Source of the DNA: a virus
IMG/VR virus record: IMGVR_UViG_3300030685_000003
Location: 1-64,000 of that record
Strand: one strand, 5' to 3'
Length of the DNA: 64,000 nucleotides
Below are positions 3,314-25,680 of this stretch, one piece after another (positions within the stretch are counted from its first letter, which is position 1; each line of letters begins with the position of its first letter). Below the pieces are notes generated by a model. It was not told the DNA's origin. It saw nothing but the letters and a program-made list of their open reading frames with translations, and made no database searches. A program made the position numbers and the translations under genes.

Positions 3314-3340
3314 AGTGATATATACAATATAAAGAATTTG

Positions 3341-3408
3341 GCAGGTAGACAGGACTTGCACCTATATGGCCTCGCAATGGGCATGTTACTAATTACACCA
3401 CTACCTGC
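3341..3408 (-). tRNA. tRNA-like gene, anticodon tentatively TGC
   Basis: 68 nt. Perfect 8 bp terminal stem (GCAGGTAG/CTACCTGC), a 4 bp D-arm, and a T-arm with 7 nt loop TGCAAGT. The best anticodon arm gives loop ATTGCGA, i.e. anticodon TGC, but with one stem mismatch and almost no variable loop. A better tRNA-Ala(TGC) lies at 6776-6848, so identity here is doubtful. May be decayed or an unusual compact tRNA. Confidence 0.5.
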
Positions 3409-3416
3409 ATATTATA

Positions 3417-3470: not shown

Positions 3471-3474
3471 ATTT

Positions 3475-3599
3475 TGGATAGGGGGAGATTCGAACTCCCG
3501 AGCCACCGCAGGGAAGCGGTCGCATATCTCATATAGTCTTATCTCGAGATTATTATCTATACCCCTTTTACTAGCTCTGCCTCCTGAGCTTTCCTATCC
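3475..3599 (-). tRNA. tRNA-like gene with ~50 nt insertion after the D-arm
   Basis: 125 nt. Perfect 7 bp acceptor (GGATAGG/CCTATCC), D-arm with AGCT/AGCT stem, and a perfect T-arm GGGAG-TTCGAAT-CTCCC. Between D-arm and T-arm are about 50 extra nt containing a palindrome ATCTCGAGAT inside a TATAG/CTATA stem, then a hairpin ACCGC-TTCCCT-GCGGT. That last hairpin is either an anticodon arm (TCC/CCC) with a 6 nt loop or a class II variable arm. Identity unresolved; the discriminator is A. The extra segment looks like an intron or expanded arm. Confidence 0.55.
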
Positions 3600-3636
3600 A
3601 TAATGCCAGATAACACTCTGGCGGGAAATAGTATTA

Positions 3637-4002: not shown

Positions 4003-4878
4003 TTAAAATGTTTTTCATGATTGATTGACGTCAAATACGAACAACCCGTTATCTCTCCACATTTGTACTACTTGCGGGCGATCATCGAAGACAAACACTA
4101 CGTTGTACTTATCTTTGATATGTTTATCGTAGATCTCTTGCTTGACGATGCTATCTTTTCTCGTATCATCAGTCGCTCTCATATAGAGTTGATCGAATAC
4201 TATATCATTATCTTCAAGCCATCTCATTGTTTCTTCTCTACAATAATCCATACGCCCAGTAGTTATGATGATCTCTATCTTACATCCGTTTCTGAACGCA
4301 GCACTATAGAATGCGGCTAGAACTCATGATGTCTCATCTATACAGATATCTACTCAGCATTTAGCGAAATCATAGATGTCTCTATCTCACTTCTCGGATA
4401 ATGTTCAGTCGATATCGCATATAATACAGAGTGGGAGATCTGGACTATGTGGTCTTCTAATAAACGGTTTGTATAGATATTTATTGTACATCTCCATAAT
4501 TACCTTCTTACCTACGGGATTCTCTCTCTTGGAGTCTCTTTCGATACATTCATCTACCGGAGTGTCGAAGAATTTTACTTCGAACTCAGCACTATGAGTC
4601 TTTGCTATATCTCTTAGTACTAATTCATGCTCAGGAGAAAAGTTTGTATCGTCAACTATTGCTGTATATCAATCATAAAGAGTCATATGTACCATATGAT
4701 TTCTAGCCTCTATAACAAATTTCTCATTTGCTTTCGATCGACGTCAAACATCAACCATAGCTCTTAAGTCATCCTTGTTTATACGTTTATACTTACCAGG
4801 ACTTTTCAATACCAATTCCTTGGCATAAGTGCTCTTACCACTCGCTGGCAATCCTTTGAGCATGAGTATTTTCTTCAT
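4003..4878 (-). CDS. pnkP: polynucleotide 5'-kinase / 3'-phosphatase (T4 Pnkp type)
   Basis: 291 residues, close to T4 Pnk (301). The N-terminal kinase domain has P-loop GLPASGKST (residues 9-17), a DD pair and the TNFSPEH region. The C-terminal HAD phosphatase domain has DIDGT (about residue 170), a TTGR motif and FVFDDRP near the end. It phosphorylates 5'-OH ends and removes 3' or 2',3'-cyclic phosphates so cut RNA can be sealed. The RNA ligase gene lies directly upstream with a 1 bp gap, so the two form a healing-and-sealing pair, as T4 Pnk and Rnl1 do for cleaved tRNA. The catalytic DxDGT glycine is TGA. Confidence 0.93.
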
Positions 4879-4879
4879 C

Positions 4880-6130
4880 TTATGATTGGGTTGATTCTAA
4901 ATCCTCAACTCCTAGGTCAAGGTCTGCCGATTCTTTACCTAAAAAGATAGGACTCTTAGCTTTAGTTACAAATGGTTGGATTCAATCTCTACGAACAACA
5001 ACTCATTCATCACATGGTGACTTATCACATAATGGTACAGCGTGTTTGTGTGTAGGAAAATAAGTTATATCAATCCAATCCTCAGCAACAAAGTCTTTAT
5101 GATATCATTCCCACATCAATGGAACAATATTAAATCAATTCATAGTACAGAATGCCTCCATATTATCATATGTAAGATCACAAGAGATCCCATCCTCATT
5201 GACAATAGCTATTCTATACACATACATAGCCATTTGGCCCTGTGGTAAGTTATAGGTATAGTCTTTTTGGATTTGTTTGTCTCCATCCCATCAGATTATT
5301 TCTCCATAGATGATCCAGTTCTTTGGGATTCTATCTTTATATTCAGCTAGTACCTTGTTCCATAGATCAGAGGCATAGTACCCAGAGTGTTCCTTGTCTA
5401 CCTTAGCATCTTTAACTACCCTTCTAGATCCAGCTATGTAGTCATATTCGTATTCATCTATAGCGATCCCGAATTTTTTGAGAATATTCTCTATGAAGTT
5501 TGTAGCTCTTCTAACTTTGATATGCCCAAATCTACCAGATGTCCCATGTAATTTTTGGGTAGCGGTGACCATATCACCATCTTTATAGAAATGTTTATTT
5601 CTCCAGTAGTTCTCAGTGTCGAGATGTTCTGGGAAAGTTTTGGCATCAACTCTAGTGAATACCTTGTTTTTACCACCAACTCTATTCTCTCTAGATCATT
5701 TTACCGCAATTTCATATTTCTTACAGATCTCAACCCCATCAATGGCGTTAAAAGTGTCTCATAATTGCAGTTCTCATTGGACTAGGGATGATAAAGAGCT
5801 CACTGGCATAAGTAATGCTGAGGAAATATGCCCTCTCAATTTTACGGTCTTGATTCTTCTTTTCTCTTCGATATATCCTGGCTTCGCTTCTATGTCAGAA
5901 TTGAGCTCTGGTTTTCTGTAGAGGTTGTTATTCTTACAGTAGTCCTCAGATAGTTGACATTCAGCAGTGAATAGGATATATAGTGCTTGTAGATCTATAT
6001 CTTTAGACACTATAGCTTGGTATCCGAAGAACGGAACGGCTCTAAGATTATCGCATCATACGAGATCAAGTAGTGCTCAGATTTTTACTACGGTTGCACA
6101 GTAATTATTATCGTGGATTTCTAATTTCAT
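4880..6130 (-). CDS. ATP-dependent RNA ligase (DRB0094/Rnl5-like)
   Basis: 416 residues. Nucleotidyltransferase motif I is KLHGT (about residue 206), motif IV is DEGVVVR (about 373) and motif V includes TKAKS. An N-terminal domain of about 180 residues with RGHISSALLMPVS precedes the ligase core, as in the Deinococcus-type RNA ligase with an N-terminal OB fold. It seals 3'-OH/5'-phosphate nicks or breaks in RNA. It is cotranscribed with Pnkp and sits next to the tRNA cluster, so tRNA repair or processing of the unusual tRNA-like RNAs here is a plausible job (inference). Confidence 0.88.
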
Positions 6131-6196
6131 GATTGCTTTCTATAAAAATAAAATTATTCATCATTATGATAAGCTATGTTATAAATTGGGGAGTAC

Positions 6197-6330
6197 AAAT
6201 ATATTATTGTTGCCATGTGCAGTGACTTAGATGGGTATACTTTTACCCGGAATGGATACCGGAACCTATGCCCTGCCCAAATCCATTGAGATAGGTATTC
6301 AGTAATACTCATAGCAACAATAATATATTT
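6197..6330 (-). ncRNA. unassigned structured RNA closed by a 17 bp stem
   Basis: Perfect 17 bp inverted repeat (6197-6213 and 6314-6330) enclosing about 100 nt with further small palindromes (GGTAT/ATACC, CCGG/CCGG, GTGCAGTG region). It lies 6 bp downstream of the tRNA-Ser end on the leftward transcript and 66 bp upstream of the RNA ligase. Could be a stable RNA, leader or attenuator. No family recognised and no ORF explains it. Confidence 0.45.
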
Positions 6331-6336
6331 ACAATC

Positions 6337-6418
6337 GGAAGATCAAGGATTTGAACCTTGGAGACCTTTCAGTCTTACCGATTAGCAATCGGCTGCATTA
6401 CCGCTCTGCCAATCTTCC
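6337..6418 (-). tRNA. tRNA-Ser(GCT)
   Basis: 82 nt with acceptor GGAAGAT/ATCTTCC, anticodon loop TTGCTAA (anticodon GCT) on a CCGA/TCGG-type stem, a long class II variable arm, and T-arm with loop TTCAAAT. All serine hallmarks are visible. Confidence 0.9.
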
Positions 6419-6547
6419 TTATAGGTAATCTTTAGTAAATTTTTTGAGCCATTGTCTGAATGCTTTCTTAAACGAGATGTGCTTGATCTCTTTCTTAGAT
6501 AACCATCAGACTCACATACTTTTGATCTTTCTCGTAATCTTCATCAT
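6419..6547 (-). CDS. small basic protein, 42 aa
   Basis: MMKITRKIKSMGVGWLSKK continues to a Lys/Arg-rich amphipathic C-terminus (FRQWLKKFTKDYL). It stops exactly at the tRNA-Ser 5' end. Two glycines are TGA. Could be a nucleic-acid-binding or membrane-active peptide; coding is supported by composition and fit between two tRNAs. Confidence 0.45.
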
Positions 6548-6610
6548 ACAATGGTTAAGAATAAACATTGAAAACAGTCCCTCTGTGGCAGATGAAACCA
6601 GACAAATGAC

Positions 6611-6691
6611 TGGGTTAGATAGGATTCGAACCTACAAGCCGGTAAAGGACTCCGTCTACAGCGGAGCGGACCACCATTGCCCAACTAACCC
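6611..6691 (-). tRNA. tRNA-Tyr(GTA)
   Basis: 81 nt. Acceptor GGGTTAG/CTAACCC, 5 bp anticodon stem CTCCG/CGGAG with loop CTGTAGA (anticodon GTA), long variable arm as usual in bacterial tRNA-Tyr, T-loop TTCGAAT. Confidence 0.92.
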
Positions 6692-6695
6692 ATGG

Positions 6696-6766
6696 AGCGA
6701 TATATGGGACTTCAACCCATGATGCCTGGTTGGAAGCCAGACGTGTTAGCGCTACACTAATACCGC
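6696..6766 (-). tRNA. tRNA-Gly(TCC)
   Basis: Acceptor GCGGTAT/ATATCGC with one G-U pair, anticodon loop CTTCCAA on a TCTGG/CCAGG stem, T-loop TTGAAGT, discriminator U as in bacterial tRNA-Gly. Serves ordinary GGA/GGG codons. Confidence 0.92.
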
Positions 6767-6775
6767 ATATTATCT

Positions 6776-6848
6776 TGGAGAATGAGGGAATCGAACCCTC
6801 TCCTTCTCGGTGCAAGCGAGATGTGCTAGCCATTGCCACTAACCCCCC
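6776..6848 (-). tRNA. tRNA-Ala(TGC)
   Basis: Anticodon loop CTTGCAC on a TCTCG/CGAGA stem. The acceptor GGGGGGT/ATTCTCC includes a G3-U70 wobble, the alanine identity element. T-arm GAGGG-TTCGATT-CCCTC and D-arm are canonical. Confidence 0.92.
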
Positions 6849-6852
6849 ATAT

Positions 6853-6926
6853 CGCATCCCCTAGGATTCGAACCTAGAACCCACGACTTAACAGGCCGTT
6901 GCTCTAACCATTAAAGCTAGGGATGC
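6853..6926 (-). tRNA. tRNA-Asn(GTT)
   Basis: Acceptor GCATCCC/GGGATGC, anticodon stem ACGGC/GTCGT with loop CTGTTAA, T-arm CTAGG-TTCGAAT-CCTAG, discriminator G. Fully canonical. Confidence 0.93.
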
Positions 6927-6928
6927 AT

Positions 6929-6993
6929 AGTCACAGGCGAGGATCGAACTCGCGTACGCGGATTTGAAGTCCACACCACTGACCAACTGTGAT
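6929..6993 (-). tRNA. UGA-decoding tRNA (anticodon UCA), probably tRNA-Gly
   Basis: Anticodon stem GTGGA/TCCGC (5 bp) with loop CTTCAAA gives anticodon TCA, which reads UGA. T-arm GCGAG-TTCGATC-CTCGC is perfect, and discriminator U fits bacterial glycine tRNA. Between acceptor and anticodon stem only about 12 nt remain, with no evident D-stem, and position 1-72 is an A-C mismatch, leaving 6 acceptor pairs. Given GroEL evidence that UGA is Gly, this most likely inserts glycine. A tRNA-Sec is excluded by the short arms. Confidence 0.8.
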
Positions 6994-7006
6994 ACTGCGA
7001 CATACT

Positions 7007-7077
7007 CATACTATCTAGGAATCGGACCTAGTCCTAGGACTTTGGAGATCCCTGTGCTACCAGTACACCAATAGTAT
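7007..7077 (-). tRNA. tRNA-Trp(CCA)
   Basis: Acceptor ATACTAT/ATAGTAT, anticodon stem GGGAT/GTCCT with loop CTCCAAA (anticodon CCA), T-loop TCCGATT, discriminator G. Its CCA anticodon shows Trp is read only from UGG, which supports UGA being Gly. Confidence 0.92.
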
Positions 7078-7082
7078 ATAAT

Positions 7083-7153
7083 CTCAGAGCCGAAGAATCG
7101 AACTTCTGTCCCCTGCTTCAAAGGCAGGTGTCATGCCACTAGACCATCTCTGA
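7083..7153 (-). tRNA. tRNA-Gln(TTG)
   Basis: Anticodon stem CCTGC/GCAGG with loop CTTTGAA (anticodon TTG), discriminator G, acceptor TCAGAG/CTCTGA plus a mismatch at 7-66, T-loop TTCGATT with an imperfect stem. First tRNA downstream of the DUF2828 gene. Confidence 0.85.
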
Positions 7154-7254
7154 ATATTGAGGTTTCGTGTACCTAACAGAAACCCCTAAAGAATAGCATA
7201 CAGCTTAGCCCACCGTATGAGAGACGTCGATAATCAACTAGACAGGGATAGCAT
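7154..7254 (-). other. intergenic spacer with hairpin
   Basis: Between the DUF2828 stop and tRNA-Gln is a strong hairpin, GGGGTTTC ... GAAACCTC, with a 12 nt loop (about 7158-7187). No T-run follows, so RNA processing or stability rather than simple termination is likely. Confidence 0.35.
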
Positions 7255-8646
7255 CTAATCTATTTGTTCGTATCTTTCAGAGTTGAGCGTCTTCAACATT
7301 ACTCCAATAGGAGTCATATCTTCACCACCCAATAATCCCTTCATGATAGCTGGAGATGCTCCAGAGACTAGTGCAACACCATTTGCATTATATGCTACAG
7401 GTGAGTTACCTTGCCTTCCATTTACATTCCAGTAAACAAGATTCGGCATTTGGTAACCAAATTGTTCGTATTGCAATCTGATAGCCTCATGATTTGTTAG
7501 TCATCCTACATTAGAGTCGTTGAACTCCATGTCAGAGATAACCAATATATTGTCTGGCATATCAGCAGCTGTTAGATTAGAAGCTAGCGCTGTATTCAAT
7601 ACTAATTGAAACGCTGCTTGTAGATTTGTGTCAAATCACACAGGCCCAGCAATCTCTCTAAATCTTTGGCAAGGAGATCCTTGCAAGTATTGCATTCTAG
7701 GTTCTGATGTGAACGTGATGAATGCATCCTTAAATATAGACTTGTTTCTTTCCGCTAGATATACTCACAATGATATGGAAATGTCCATCGGAGTCAAGTT
7801 ATTGTTACCATATGAGCTATTCATTGATCCAGATACATCTACCATAGGTAAGAAGGATTTTCCTTCAGGCACATAGTTAGGTAGGTTAGCCCACTGAGCA
7901 TTGATAATAGTTGGATTTTCTCATTTATTATATGATTGATACAACTGATAAGGAAACAATGTCCCAGCCTTGATTGCTAGCGGATCCTTTTCGATGAATT
8001 GATTGAATCTTTCCTCGTCGTGTCTAACAAATGCTTTCTTATATTTATGGAATGCTTGAGATGGAATCTTTTCGTATTCAATAAACGCCCATTGATTAGC
8101 AGACATTTGTTGCTCAACTACCTTAGTGTTTGCTACTAGGAATTTTCTGAATGCTTTTGGAGATAATTTGAGATGCTTTCTAAAGTACTCAAATATTTCG
8201 CCTTTTCTAGGCATCCATTTACATAACAATCCTATCTTACTTTCTTTTGTATGGTCAGTATCTGGTGAATGCATCCATTCAAGGATATATTCTAATGATG
8301 TATCAAAAAGATCATCCCATCTACCATATTCTGGCACAAATTTGTTGTATTTTTGAAGCTGTGCTTTTGATAAAGAATTCCAGATAGTTCTAAAGAATCT
8401 TCTTTCTCCAGCTCATCATCTGACATCTCTAGCCCAGAATAAACATCTGAACGCTAGCTTCTCATCTTCAACAAGTGCAGAGGTCCACATAGAAAGGATA
8501 TCCTTTTCAGACATATTTCTAGAAGCTCCCGCTATGAAGAAAAGATCTACAACAGAGTGTAGAGAAGTTGAATTTGTTACTGCTCCATTGGCAGTTAATG
8601 AATCATGCTGTCTAGCAGCGTTAACGAATGGTGATTGTGAGATCAT
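7255..8646 (-). CDS. DUF2828 protein: Ro60/TROVE-like region plus vWA domain
   Basis: 463 residues. The N-terminal helical part has VVDLFFIAGASR and RDVRGGAGERRFF, then CKWMPRKG and FVANTKVVEQQM-type motifs typical of DUF2828. The C-terminal vWA domain has a MIDAS-like VDVSGSM (about residue 289) with downstream Thr/Asp (GFDTN, ISDMEFN). DUF2828 is related to Ro60, a ring protein that binds misfolded RNAs and Y RNAs. Start MISQSPFVN is chosen because an upstream ATG lies inside RNA unit Y-a. Directly upstream are five Y-RNA-like units. Family call strong; RNA binding is inferred from homology and context. Confidence 0.85.
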
Positions 8647-8664
8647 GGTGTATATAGTTTTACA

Positions 8665-8737
8665 GAACACAGTTTGCTGGATTTGGACCAGCTCGCTCCG
8701 AGGAGCTTCAACCAGTTTAGTTATGCTGTATGTGTTC
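8665..8737 (-). ncRNA. Y-RNA-like unit a
   Basis: Closing stem GAACACA/TGTGTTC, then the shared motif ACAGCATAACT, a hairpin GCTC-CTCG-GAGC, and a T-arm-like hairpin GCTGG-TCCAAAT-CCAGC. Ends with TGT like the other units. It is the unit nearest the DUF2828 start codon. Confidence 0.65.
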
Positions 8738-8758
8738 TTTAAATAAAGATCAAATAAC

Positions 8759-8878
8759 GGGACGCATTTCTTAAGTGCTCTAACCAGACTGAGCTACCAA
8801 CGCCTTGCGACGCTAGGTTGGATTTGAACCAACGACCACTGCTTTAATAGAGCGTAGAAGTTATGCTGTGAGCGTCCC
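8759..8878 (-). ncRNA. Y-RNA-like unit b with tRNA-like module (permuted)
   Basis: Closing stem GGGACGC/GCGTCCC and motif CACAGCATAACT. Inside, in order: T-arm GTTGG-TTCAAAT-CCAAC, the acceptor 3' strand, a GCAA tetraloop, the acceptor 5' strand (8 bp stem CTAGCGTC/GGCGTTGG), and D-arm GCTC-AGTCTGGTTA-GAGC. tRNA parts are thus circularly permuted and the acceptor is capped, as in tRNA mimics of bacterial Y RNAs. If the closing part were removed, an anticodon stem CTGCT/AGCAG would form. Confidence 0.75.
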
Positions 8879-8893
8879 TTATATTTATTAACA

Positions 8894-9005
8894 GGACAGG
8901 ATTTTAAGGCGTCCTAACCACTAGACTACGTGTGCCTTGCGACACATAACGGGAATCGAACCCATGTCTCCTGCTTGAAGTGCAGAGTTTATGCTGTTAC
9001 TGTCC
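8894..9005 (-). ncRNA. Y-RNA-like unit c with tRNA-like module (permuted)
   Basis: Closing stem AGGACAG/CTGTCCT (outer pair just outside the interval) and motif ACAGCATAAACT. T-arm ATGGG-TTCGATT-CCCGT, GCAA-capped acceptor-like stem (TGTGTC/GGCACA) and Glu-type D-arm GTCTAGTGGTTAGGAC follow in permuted order. Removing the closing part would give stem CCTGC/GCAGG with loop ACTTCAA. Same architecture as unit b with different sequence. Confidence 0.75.
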
Positions 9006-9028
9006 TTTGATTTGTTTTACCCTAAACA

Positions 9029-9130
9029 GGTCACGATAAGATGGCTTGCGCCAAGATTATTGTGTAGCGAATCACCACTACGGGATCCTTGCGGACTGGA
9101 GATTTTTGGGTTGGGTTGCTGTGTGTGACC
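9029..9130 (-). ncRNA. Y-RNA-like unit d
   Basis: Closing stem AGGTCAC/GTGACCT, motif ACACAGCAACCC, two hairpins capped by GCAA tetraloops (GTCC/GGAT and TGGC/GCCA), and a GTAG/CTAC arm with a D-loop-like sequence. No clear T-arm, so it is a diverged or different module in the same frame. Confidence 0.6.
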
Positions 9131-9143
9131 TTTGAGATATACA

Positions 9144-9194
9144 GGAGGCATTGGTTTTAGCGTTACAGAGCTTATAAGTTTGCTGTGAGCCTCC
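9144..9194 (-). ncRNA. Y-RNA-like unit e, minimal form
   Basis: Closing stem AGGAGGC/GCCTCCT and motif TCACAGCAAACTT with only about 25 nt inside, including AGC/GCT pairing. It lacks the tRNA-like module, so it may show the minimal protein-binding part of the family. It is the first unit of the array on the leftward transcript, just after the endolysin stop. Confidence 0.6.
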
Positions 9195-9206
9195 TTTGTT
9201 GATGAT

Positions 9207-10456: not shown

Positions 10457-11368
10457 CTATTTTTTTACCATCGAGTATGCTATACCCCAAGATAAACAAA
10501 AGCCTATAACTATAAGACTCATGTACGTCGGTATATGGAATCCAAAGATTCCTGATATCATTTTTGCTCATATGAAGAACAAAATAATAATAACTGCATG
10601 ACTAAGGTATTTAACTTGGTTACCTACTGCCTCCAATATAAAGTATAGAGATCTTAGACCAAGTATTGCAAATATATTGGAAGAGAATAGGATGAACTTA
10701 TCTGACGTGATTGCTAATACAGCTGGTATAGAATCAAAAGCGAACATAACGTCTGCTATCTCAATAACTACCAAAGTCAAAAACAACGCAGTCATAAATA
10801 GTTTTCAGTTTTCTCTTACAAAGAATTTGTGTCAATCTAATTTTGGGTAAACAGGTAGTATTTTTTTTAGAAATGTAGCTATCTTCCCTTTAGAATAATC
10901 AACTTCGTCTTGTTCTCAACCATCTGACATTAGCTCTTTGAGCATTTTAATAGCAGACCAAATAACAATAAGACCGAAGATAACTAACACAACTGGTCAA
11001 AGTGACATTAGCCACGCCCCAGCAAAGATAAAACACATTCTTAATACGATTGCACCTAGTATTCCTCGGTATAAAATTCTATGTCTATACCTTTGAGGTA
11101 TAACGAATGATGAGAATATTGCCATCATAACGAATAGATTATCAACCGACAGTGATTTCTCTAATAAGTAACCACTAAAGAAATTCATTGAAGCGTCCAG
11201 ACCCATTGAAAAATATATATACACATTGAATCCTACAGCCAAAGCTATCCACATACAGCTTTCTATAGCTGCTTGTTTCAAAGATATTGCTTTATCTTCC
11301 TTATGCCTTAGATGATCAAATGTCAACGACGCTGCAAGAACCACAAACATAACAATGTAATGTCACAT
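10457..11368 (-). CDS. terC: TerC family integral membrane protein
   Basis: 303 residues, 7-9 hydrophobic helices. Family hallmarks: SLSVDNLFVMMAIF with the conserved acidic residue in helix, and VVIEIADVMFAFDSIPAVLA with Asp/Glu in the second half. TerC proteins are linked to metal (Mn, tellurite) homeostasis at the membrane. ATG overlaps the TAA of the upstream gene; a TerD gene follows further upstream, so this is a Ter-type cassette. Uncommon cargo for a phage. Confidence 0.9.
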
Positions 11369-11658
11369 TATCTTTTTGCCGACAATAAAAAGCTAATGTA
11401 AGACACTAAGATAACGGCACATATGATGAATGATAACATCCCGCTAAACATAAAGAATACCAATAATGGAGCCAATACTAAGAATGATCTAATAGCAGTA
11501 TTATTGTTTTGATCCCATCTTACGATAAATCCATTGATTAAGTTAACCAAGAATCTAGTGAAAGGATTTCTCTTTGTGGCACCAAGCCATAGTTGGAATT
11601 TGTTTGCGTAAATTTGTCATAAATGTTTTTCAATAAATTTGAGTATAGTATTAAACAT
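11368..11658 (-). CDS. small two-helix membrane protein, 96 aa
   Basis: MFNTILKFIEKHLGQIYA is an amphipathic start, then two hydrophobic segments (about 57-75 and 77-92: LVLAPLLVFFMFSG, FIICAVILVSYISFLL). Translationally coupled to TerC by TAATG. Probable partner of TerC or a holin-like protein; not assigned. Confidence 0.6.
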
Positions 11659-11678
11659 TCCTAAATAGGGGGTAAGAA

Positions 11679-11708
11679 TAAAAGAAAAGGGTGGTGGTTA
11701 GCCACCCT
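11679..11708 (-). terminator. Rho-independent terminator after terD
   Basis: On the leftward strand GGTGG-CTAA-CCACC is followed by CCCTTTTCTTTTATT. Lies just downstream of the TerD stop. Confidence 0.75.
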
Positions 11709-11714
11709 AACCTA

Positions 11715-12242
11715 CTAAAGACTTTCAGCTACTTGTGAAATGTCTCCGTCAATGTAGTCTCCCATTGCTGTGAAAGCATAGTTGTCACCTGAGTCAACAA
11801 CCTTACCTACTACTACAGCAGTATGAGCACCACCTTGAGCCAATACATAAGTTGCAAGAACTTCGTTTGTTTCTTGATTGTATACAGTTGCCTTAGCATT
11901 TGCAACATCAGAGAACTTAACGTTTCCTGTGTAAATATTTACACAGATGAAGTACTCACCATCACCAGATTTAGTGGCGTCCATTTTAACGAATTCATCG
12001 TCTCCATCTCCTGCACCAGTTCTATTGTCTTCTGACAATTCGACCCCAGTAATAGCAGTTCTAGCATTGTAGTATGCTACTTTCTTTGCTCCATTTGCTT
12101 TTTCAACAATGAACAAATCAAGATCTGCAGTAATTCCTTCTTTAACGTCCCAAGAGAGACCTACTCTAATTTTTGAGATAGATGAACCATCTGCTTTTTT
12201 GAGGTCTAGAGTTTGACCTTTAACCAAGTTGAGTGCTTTCAT
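11715..12242 (-). CDS. terD: TerD domain protein
   Basis: 175 residues covering one full TerD (calcium-binding stress protein) domain: MKALNLVKGQTLDLKK, then VGLSWD, ADLDLFIVE, DNRTGAGDGDDE (acidic Ca-site loop) and GDGEYFICVNIYTG. TerD proteins act in tellurite/stress responses and bind calcium. The gene is TGA-free although the protein has about 19 glycines, unlike neighbours, suggesting high expression or recent acquisition. Own terminator downstream and promoter upstream at 12580-12607. Confidence 0.9.
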   Translation of the reverse strand: MKALNLVKGQTLDLKKADGSSISKIRVGLSWDVKEGITADLDLFIVEKANGAKKVAYYNARTAITGVELSEDNRTGAGDGDDEFVKMDATKSGDGEYFICVNIYTGNVKFSDVANAKATVYNQETNEVLATYVLAQGGAHTAVVVGKVVDSGDNYAFTAMGDYIDGDISQVAESL

Positions 12243-17058: not shown

Positions 17059-18363
17059 TTATTCGTAATCTTTCATATCAAGATATGTGAAGTTATTTGT
17101 GTATGTTTGATACGCTCTCTTTCTGGCGTACCATTGATTCTCCGTCATTGAAGAATTATCTACTATGTCGTATATATTTATCTCTTGTTTCCCTTCAAAA
17201 GATCTCATTGCTCTTCCCGATGCTTGTATAACATTAGCTGGCTCTCTACCTGAGAAACAGACTATAATTGTATCTACTGCTGGATTATCGAATCCTACTC
17301 AGAGGATTTGTCTTGTTGCTACCAATACTCTTTTTTCTTCAAATTGCAACATAATTTCATTTCTTTTTTTTGTGGTAGTTGTGGCAACTATGAATGGGAT
17401 ATCAAGTTCTTTTCAAAATCTCTCGGAAGTCTCAGCTCTGTCAGTCATGATAAGTATTTTTTTGTTTGCTGATAAAGACTTCTTTACTAGTCTTTTCACC
17501 ACATCTATTTTTTCTGGGTTTGCTTCTAACATTGTCTTAAGATTATTCCAATCAGCATACTCATCGAATAGTGTCTTGAGTTTTATCTTAGTAACCCTTA
17601 TGTCAAATTGAGAGATAAGAAACTCTCTATATTCATAAGCATCTACTATTCTTCCCCAAAATTTTAGGAAGTCACCATACTTAAATCAAGACATATCAGG
17701 AGTTCAAGTCATAGCATACTTATATTGACATTGGGTCTCTATGATCATATTTCTGTATGTGTTTTTGATGAGTAGATGTGCTTCATCGAATATAGTTATA
17801 TCCCATTCCCCATTATATTTTTCTAAGAATTTTTTGTAGGAAGCATAAACAACAACCGTTATGTCATTGAATTGTTTCTTCATTCCATAGTAGATACCTA
17901 CTTGTCATGGGAATTTTTCTTCTAATGATGCTGATAGTTGTTGTGCATTCATAATTGTATTTGTCAATATAACTGTCTTTCATTTAAGCTGCCCTATTAT
18001 CCAAGCAGTTGTCACCGTCTTACCGTATCCAACATCGGCGTATAAAAGACCGTATGGTTTCTGGATAAGTTCTTTCTGTGGTCTATCCTGATATCGTCTA
18101 AGTACTGTAGTATCGTGTATTGTAATAGGCTTATTTATTACTGACTCTACCTTTATTCCGAAGTGTTCACAAGCAGAGATATTACACTTCCCATTCCTAA
18201 CATTCCATAGTGGATAGAAATCTGGTTGCATATATCAGGCCTTCTCATTGATCCTAGTTAGCTTTTCTTTCTTGTAATTTTCTGTACGCAAAAAAGATTT
18301 AGGATTAGCGAAGGTATTTAGTTGTGTTATCTCTGCAAGAGTTATTGATCAGTTATGGAGCAT
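17059..18363 (-). CDS. SF2 DEAH-type helicase
   Basis: 434 residues. Motif I ADVGYGKT (about 113), motif II IFDEAH, motif III MTGTP, motif V-like GVGFDNPAVD and motif VI QASGRAMR. The N-terminal 80 residues include a short Cys-containing part (GKCNISACEHFG). Resembles UvsW/RecG-like phage helicases that remodel replication or recombination intermediates. Context (RecT, SSB, nuclease) supports this. Confidence 0.88.
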
Positions 18364-25254: not shown

Positions 25255-25680
25255 TTAGTCTGTTATAGATAAAGACTTCGCCTCTTCTGCTAGTTCTTCT
25301 AATCTTTCAATCATTTCGTCATATCAATTTTCGTAAGTCACAAATTGATCTTCTAGAGTTATTGCATATTTTCTTCACTTCTCTGTGCCATATCTAGGGG
25401 TTCGTCTGTCTGTCCTGATTTCTATATCCGTTCTATCTTCACTACAAGCGACTACTTCTGCGTATATTCATTTACCTTTGTAGAGATTTGTTATTAAAAA
25501 TCCTATCTCTAAATCATTGGCGTTTTCTAGTCGCTCATCTTTTTGTTCGGTTGTGAGCTTTGCAAGTGTCCCGTCTTCGTCTATAGCTTCTTGGCGTCAA
25601 TAACCTTGACAAGAACATTTATATTCATTCTCCTCTAATACTTTTTTACTATCTGTGCTTTCGTGGTAGTATTTTGCCAT
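25255..25680 (-). CDS. hypothetical protein, 141 aa
   Basis: MAKYYHESTDSKKVLEENE, with CSCQGYG near residue 25 and beta-rich NANDLEIGFLITN. Acidic C-terminal helix. Unrecognised. Confidence 0.6.

Follow-up and report, generated by a model that had tools for sequence, protein, structure and literature searches.

We analysed a 64,000-nt window (bases 1-64000 of the 70,155-b IMG/VR virus record IMGVR_UViG_3300030685_000003) in which a 5.2 kb region of the minus strand, read from position 9200 to 4003, carries an array of small RNAs, a gene for a DUF2828/DUF7788 protein, eight tRNAs, an RNA ligase gene and a gene for a Pnkp-type kinase-phosphatase (Table 1). A preliminary description, made from the sequence alone, had placed these elements together on one strand, and profile matches to the proteins and the detection of eight tRNAs in the cluster confirmed this. 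The genes are interrupted by TGA codons if read with translation table 11 and are open with table 25. Five of the six in-frame TGA codons of the DUF2828 gene align to Gly in homologues and the tRNA array includes a tRNA with a UCA anticodon, which together support the reading of TGA as Gly.

The DUF2828 protein was modelled with AlphaFold2, using the window protein and 57 IMG/VR relatives as input, which gave a model with a pLDDT of 90 and a pTM of 0.89. A Foldseek search of the PDB returned Ro60 or TROVE proteins as the best thirteen matches without exception, while VIA-align superposed the model on Xenopus Ro60 with a Z score of 22.9 (401 residues, rmsd 3.9 Å), the first unrelated fold, a vWA-type domain, reaching Z 11.6. 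The model thus features both parts of the Ro60 fold, a helical-repeat ring and a vWA domain, and the vWA metal site (DxSxS..T..D; D270, S272, S274, T340 and D372) is invariant among relatives. A sequence profile of these relatives matches the Ro60 of Thermus phage phiLo (E 2e-4) and, over a short stretch, the TROVE chains 9l5y and 9kop (E 2.3e-4). Identity to solved Ro60s is 11-19%, and Pfam reports DUF7788 and DUF2828 alone up to E 0.1, with no TROVE family. Based on the modelled fold, the Foldseek and VIA-align matches, the profile match and the invariant vWA site, the DUF2828/DUF7788 protein is a distant Ro60, so the Ro60-like identity that had been proposed for it is borne out by the structural model. 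Related proteins are encoded in at least 665 of 50,697 phage records, including Felix O1, KVP40, P100/A511 and Mycobacterium phages, where annotators already use the name 'Ro-like', as well as in many bacterial chromosomes. A full-text literature search for the DUF2828 domain name returned plant papers only; plant genomes carry this domain (PMC12344491, PMC6937682).

Five RNA units (U1-U5) fill positions 8661-9197, and the 'Y-RNA-like array' of the preliminary description corresponds to these units. They were located with a scanner for a terminal stem plus motif that was run over the whole 64 kb, where the five units scored 20-22 and nothing elsewhere exceeded 19. Each unit starts with AAG or AAAG and has a 6-8-bp stem joining its ends, an ACAGCA motif 1-3 bases past the 5' strand of this stem, a variable middle and, usually, a CUGU end. 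U1 ends ∼15 nt ahead of the DUF2828 start codon and contains a T-arm-like hairpin (GCTGG-TCCAAAT-CCAGC) and a second hairpin, while U4 has three inner hairpins, two of them with GCAA loops. Folding was better than that of shuffled sequences for U1 (z -3.2), U2 (z -3.1) and U4 (z -3.4).

Table 1. Features of the window discussed in the text. R1 is the covariance model introduced below.
Feature	Position	Strand	Details
U5, short Class-I-type RNA, 58 nt	9140..9197	-	stem GGAGGC/GCCTCC; CTCACAGCAA; ends CTGTA; scanner 22
U4	9025..9133	-	stem GGTCAC/GTGACC; ACACAGCAA; ends CTGTT; scanner 21
U3	8890..9008	-	stem GGACAG/CTGTCC; permuted tRNA-like module; scanner 21
U2, complete circularly permuted tRNA mimic	8756..8880	-	scanner 20; YrlA match; fold
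U1	8661..8740	-	stem GAACACA/TGTGTTC; ends CTGT; scanner 20; R1 E 0.0011
DUF2828/DUF7788 protein, 463 aa	7255..8646	-	PF25043 E 2.3e-40; PF11443 E 2e-22; phrog_850 E 5.7e-130
tRNA cluster, eight tRNAs	6336..7154	-	ARAGORN and Rfam agree
tRNA Gln	7082-7154	-
tRNA Trp	7006-7078	-
tRNA UCA (TGA-reading)	6929-7001	-
tRNA Asn	6852-6927	-
tRNA Ala	6775-6849	-
tRNA Gly(TCC)	6693-6766	-
tRNA Tyr	6610-6692	-
tRNA Ser(GCT)	6336-6418	-
RNA ligase	4880..6130	-	phrog_968 E 2.2e-88; PF09414
Pnkp-type polynucleotide kinase (5') and HAD phosphatase (3')	4003..4878	-	phrog_505 E 2.6e-83; HAD_PNKP E 2.7e-39
Ninth tRNA, outside cluster	12274		ARAGORN/Rfam

The same units recur beside DUF2828 genes elsewhere. On 21 other phage DUF2828 loci the scanner gave 39 matches, 37 of which lie on the DUF2828 strand, compared with 0-4 matches in shuffled sequences. 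These units adjoin DUF2828 in phages of Mycobacterium, Listeria, Enterococcus, Campylobacter, Salmonella/Escherichia, Staphylococcus, Bacillus, Sinorhizobium, Fusobacterium and Klebsiella, and all 45 matches near DUF2828 in 81 IMG/VR loci were likewise in the sense orientation. A motif-anchored test started from TACAGCAA only and therefore made no selection for stems. Near DUF2828 this sequence occurs 85 times in sense and six times in antisense, and an exact 6-bp complement follows downstream of 61 of the 85 sense sites (72%), compared with 17.5% at random anchors.

A covariance model (R1) was trained on phage units alone, 32 short ones, using an alignment (A2) that was preferred to another (A3) in which two stems were split. 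Covariation extends to all six base pairs (95.8% paired; the score is 1.06, and 0.27 when shuffled), partly by selection, and the short terminal stem with its compensatory changes is of the kind described for the Class I RNAs of Dictyostelium. U5 matches R1 with E 6.7e-7, but itself belonged to the training set. R1 was applied to chromosomal DUF2828 loci from bacteria, mostly Clostridia with some Chloroflexi, none of which had contributed to its training. Here, 81 of 82 matches fall on the DUF2828 strand and, at E<=0.1, 52 of 58 lie within 1.5 kb upstream of DUF2828, representing 40 of the 80 loci. On IMG/VR loci all 91 matches are in sense (some of these are training loci). Across 22 whole phage records, 20 reach E<=0.05, and eight of the 11 records from which no training unit was taken have matches at E<1e-3. 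Five control phages that lack a match to DUF2828, in a search whose family query does match the window record, gave a weak best R1 match of E 0.025. Genome-wide searches of 16 bacterial genomes placed many of the best matches directly upstream of DUF2828 and others elsewhere. At one locus (L105), three units directly upstream of the gene were seen both in the genome search and by eye and had been missed by the default-filter locus search, so the locus counts are lower bounds. By both scanner and R1, therefore, the RNA genes adjoin the gene for the Ro60-like protein, as in Ro60-Y RNA systems. The units also occur downstream of the DUF2828 gene in Felix O1, EC6 and Mycobacterium phages.

Further clusters were seen at a distance from the gene. 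Two Clostridia genomes have second R1 clusters ∼40-45 kb from DUF2828 (G012:C5, 53-54 kb; G005:C366, 92-93 kb), and approximately ten clustered stem-ACAGCA sites in phage GAP32 (305000-312100) and four in pEa_SNUABM_19 include some with T-arms.

Transcription data for Listeria phage CKA15 bear on whether such units are expressed. Three very strongly transcribed non-coding regions were reported in the 2 kb that precede its DUF2828 gene, and the authors suggested that these abundant transcripts beside an Rsr-like (DUF2828) gene could be Y RNAs (PMC12282133). R1 identifies three units in CKA15 (record positions 25287-25551), directly upstream of DUF2828 and behind a TTGACA...TATCAT sequence, which likely correspond to the second or third most transcribed region.

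The preliminary description had regarded the whole region as one RNA-maintenance island and had made this dependent on conserved co-occurrence in related phages. For the protein-RNA pair the association is conserved, in bacteria as well as in phages, and this part of the proposal stands. The remainder of the island fares differently. Of the 22 DUF2828 phage records, 12 have a match to the phrog_968 RNA ligase and 20 have one to phrog_505 (Pnkp); for the 42 IMG/VR contigs the counts are 13 and 26, respectively, and many of the phrog_505 matches are partial or weak. Adjacency to DUF2828 was seen only here and in GAP32 and pEa_SNUABM_19, where the ligase gene is directly upstream; at two further loci (L066 and L101) the distance is ∼3 kb. 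The tRNA clustering that had been expected at DUF2828 was not supported, as tRNA density is flat with distance and a tRNA lies within 3 kb at 16 of 81 loci. A single-protein scan of IMG/VR for close relatives returned one distant contig. What is conserved is the DUF2828 protein plus its RNAs; their close grouping with Pnkp, ligase and tRNAs is not.

This distinction bears on the alternative that comes closest to accounting for the locus. Repair of tRNAs by Pnkp and RNA ligase is established for phage T4, and the window encodes the same pair of activities, a kinase with a HAD phosphatase and an RNA ligase. The region could therefore be, as the preliminary description proposed, a T4-like island in which these enzymes reseal tRNAs cut by host anticodon nucleases, with the DUF2828 protein and its RNAs providing quality control from the same operon. 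The genes are all contiguous on one strand, and the ligase gene directly adjoins DUF2828 in GAP32 and pEa_SNUABM_19 too. Mycobacteriophage LeBron has a Ro-like protein, an RNA ligase and a PNK, each of which is toxic if overexpressed (PMC13148394), and jumbo phages with RNA repair sometimes encode ROT/TROVE proteins (PMC7824862). The rarity of adjacency across the survey and the lack of tRNA enrichment around DUF2828 argue against this reading, which we regard as possible but rather doubtful.

Several other features of the window were noted. A cloverleaf-like RNA at 3474-3601 on the minus strand has an 8-bp acceptor, a D-arm and a T-arm, with ∼45 extra nt that include a hairpin (loop UUCCCU) between the D and anticodon arms; ARAGORN does not report it, its fold has a z of -2.8 and it lacks the ACAGCA motif. 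A degenerate tRNA-like sequence on the same strand at 3340-3413 (acceptor GCAGGTA/TACCTGC) folds no better than shuffles. Between the ligase gene and tRNA-Ser, a strongly structured non-coding segment (6185-6327, minus strand, z -4.0) has an 18-bp terminal stem and no Rfam match. Homologues of TerC and TerD (tellurite-resistance type) are encoded at 10457-12242 on the minus strand, adjoining an endolysin gene.

The variable middles of some units resemble tRNAs. Within its docking stem (8872-8878/8759-8765), U2 contains an anticodon-like hairpin with a 7-nt loop, CUAUUAA (8836-8857), a T-arm (8817-8833), an acceptor capped by GCAA (8797-8816) and a D-arm (8777-8794). U2 is a tRNA circularly permuted between the D and anticodon arms. 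U3 has a hairpin, a T-arm (ATGGG-TTCGATT-CCCGT), a capped acceptor and a D-like arm, and is probably the same permuted mimic. More widely, in a non-redundant set of 99 long units 31 have a T-arm, against none in antisense and an average of 0.2 in shuffled sequences. A non-redundant set of 44 short units from bacteria includes 13 that have a hairpin with the canonical anticodon loop CUNNNAA, against none in antisense, and shuffles gave 0.65 on average and 4 at most. The bacterial loops display look-alikes of GUU, GUC, GUA, GCU, CAU, UUC, UGA and other anticodons. Phage short units rarely show such loops, so we limit the claim of anticodon-arm modules to the bacterial units and a few phage examples, in GAP32 and a 735-kb phage. 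A counterpart of the permuted U2 is found on an Oscillospiraceae contig (CAJTFN010000005.1; L115:4260-5862), where tRNA-shaped RNAs retain the non-permuted order and an open acceptor and carry the docking stem as a closed hairpin inserted after the D-arm; one of these RNAs ends in CCA. The Rfam tRNA model scores three of these RNAs at 48-56 bits. Separately, the DUF2828 phages S13 and PX29 (L004:4914-5156 and L009:8952-9068) have 113-121-nt RNAs annotated as tRNA-Ser, tRNA-OTHER and spliced tRNA-Leu, which probably represent tRNA-mimic Y RNAs, or else tRNA halves of adjacent units.

The tRNA-like units invite comparison with YrlA (RF02553), a Y RNA that is thought to recruit or occupy tRNA-handling enzymes for bacterial Ro60. 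The T-arm, capped acceptor and D-arm follow the identical permuted order in both, as seen in the alignment and fold of U2 and in the T-arm statistics. The Rfam YrlA model matches U2 with 30.9 bits, the best in the window (model positions 23-87 of 114, the T-acceptor-D part; E 2.7e-6 on the record), and its best match in the 22 DUF2828 phage records is 47.8 bits (E 7.6e-11). Phages with a Ro60-related protein and YrlA are already mentioned in a passage of PMC7765460 that cites Sim and Wolin (2018). The units could accordingly be plain YrlA Y RNAs that go with a canonical bacterial Ro60, a known family that happens to be in a phage. We consider this unlikely: all matches fall below the 69-bit gathering score, the match in U2 stops short of both ends, U2 has an extra anticodon-like hairpin, and most sister units are short and have no tRNA module. 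In addition, the conserved stem and ACAGCAA follow the plan of Dictyostelium Class I RNAs, and Pfam assigns the protein to DUF2828/DUF7788, with no TROVE family reported.

Two further explanations fit less well. As most bacterial units are upstream of DUF2828 on the same strand, the stems might be transcription terminators or leader structures of the DUF2828 mRNA, but this is very improbable given units that are downstream of the gene or far from it, the lack of a T-run after the stem, and a conserved motif and tRNA modules that are foreign to terminators. Least probable of all is that the permuted units are real permuted tRNA genes circularised by the phage RNA ligase. U2 does have a full set of permuted tRNA arms with a 7-nt anticodon-like loop, and a ligase gene is nearby, but a GCAA tetraloop closes the acceptor and leaves neither CCA nor room for processing. 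Units with no tRNA module have the same docking stem and motif, and in the bacterial relatives, which are non-permuted, the docking stem forms a closed hairpin.

The predicted fold, synteny, docking element and tRNA mimicry, which are all established at the level of sequence, make it probable that the core of the locus is a phage Ro60-type RNP, in which the DUF2828 protein is joined by five upstream RNAs that carry a docking element and tRNA-mimic modules. A number of results count against this. U3 (z only -1.1) and U5 fold no better than shuffles, the units used to train R1 were picked for having a stem, and anticodon-like loops are far less common among the units of phages (6 of 60 and 1 of 18). 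R1 has no match within 1.5 kb at 40 of the 80 bacterial loci and none at E<=0.05 in EniLVp02 and PG-2021_15 (two of the 22 phage records), while the RNAs of GAP32 and pEa_SNUABM_19 are ∼200 kb away from DUF2828. In CKA15, the most transcribed region (OR088597, 26236-26727; ∼500 nt, non-coding) holds no stem-ACAGCA unit and is an unrelated abundant RNA.

Within such an RNP, the constant part of each RNA consists of a terminal helix of 6-8 bp, then (U)(U)ACAGCA(A) and, usually, a CUGU end, and is most likely what the protein binds, as the synteny of gene and RNAs suggests. The variable part would be an effector module that mimics parts of a tRNA: whole in U2, probably whole in U3 and a T-arm in U1. 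By analogy with YrlA, these modules most likely serve to recruit or occupy tRNA-handling enzymes, such as modification enzymes, nucleases and possibly host anticodon nucleases, and to act as a gate on the Ro60-like ring, which would handle structured RNA that is damaged. The nearby Pnkp, ligase and spare tRNAs would serve the same need, namely keeping tRNAs usable during infection. We infer both this decoy or tether function and the cooperation with repair enzymes. The anticodon-arm forms in bacteria and the docking stem placed between D and anticodon arms suggest that the tRNA mimicry is modular, which could matter for tRNA-targeting defence and counter-defence. Now that DUF2828 can be assigned to Ro60 and paired with a specific RNA that can be searched for, its function becomes open to direct tests.

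The system is best read as a distinct branch of Ro60-Y RNA systems that has a docking code of its own and carries tRNA-mimic modules. It shares with Ro60 (TROVE) and its Y RNAs a Ro60 fold over nearly the whole DUF2828 protein and small RNAs that are encoded beside the gene and have both ends paired into a stem. It differs in that the phage protein belongs to Pfam DUF2828/DUF7788 and the docking element comprises a stem, ACAGCAA and CUGU, in arrays of up to five RNAs. The CKA15 regions are comparable as non-coding RNAs upstream of an Rsr-like (DUF2828) gene on the same strand, although the RNA family, docking motif and tRNA-mimic anatomy were not defined in that report (PMC12282133). The T4 repair system likewise encodes both enzyme activities together, whereas their adjacency to a Ro60-like system is not conserved. 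A literature search that lacked most subscription papers found no description of the docking motif, the phage- and bacteria-wide family or the anticodon-arm modules, nor any of the resemblance to Dictyostelium RNAs.

The short units bear a striking resemblance to Class I RNAs (RF01414). Class I RNAs begin with AAG and finish with CUGU; their 6-bp stem shows compensatory changes, an 11-nt motif sits by its 5' strand, and the middle varies. They have been described as unique to dictyostelids (PMC7919456). The units share the AAG start, covarying 6-bp stem, variable middle and CUGU end, with the difference that Felix O1-type phages end in CUGG. The Class I motif CCUUACAGCAA is paralleled by CUUACAGCAA, which the R1 and RF01414 consensus sequences have in common beside the 5' strand of the stem, with the spacing offset by one base; U5 has CUCACAGCAA. 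RF01414, a model built from amoeba RNAs, scores 37.1 and 33.0 bits in the 735-kb phage and 27.4 bits in KVP40, loci that R1 also finds, and 19 of its 24 matches at E<=0.1 in the 22 records coincide with R1 matches. Its gathering score (41.5 bits) is unreached in any phage, the best being 37.1, and T4, a control phage with no DUF2828 match, gives 24.3 bits by chance, so matches near 24 bits were dropped as stand-alone evidence; the 23.3 bits of U5 (Dicty_Class_I_RNA) are not significant alone. The likeness to Class I RNAs consequently rests on anatomy and the coincidence of two models, not on single scores. An RF01414 match at 17424-17482 (R1 E 0.14) lies inside a helicase-like gene and was taken as chance.

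Class I RNAs have been reported only from dictyostelids, where the described partner is the RRM protein Rnp1A. The DUSE promoter found ∼60 nt upstream of Class I RNAs is a dictyostelid element and is not expected in phages. We tentatively propose, with the chances a little short of even, that DUF2828 and stem-ACAGCAA RNAs form an old second Ro60-Y RNA branch across phages, bacteria and eukaryotes, with Class I RNAs as members and the tRNA pieces as baits for tRNA-cutting or -modifying enzymes. If true, Class I RNAs would belong to a wider branch rather than being a dictyostelid invention, and the RNAs described here would bridge the tRNA-mimic Y RNAs of bacteria, the non-coding RNAs of phages and the Class I RNAs of social amoebae, which have been thought separate.

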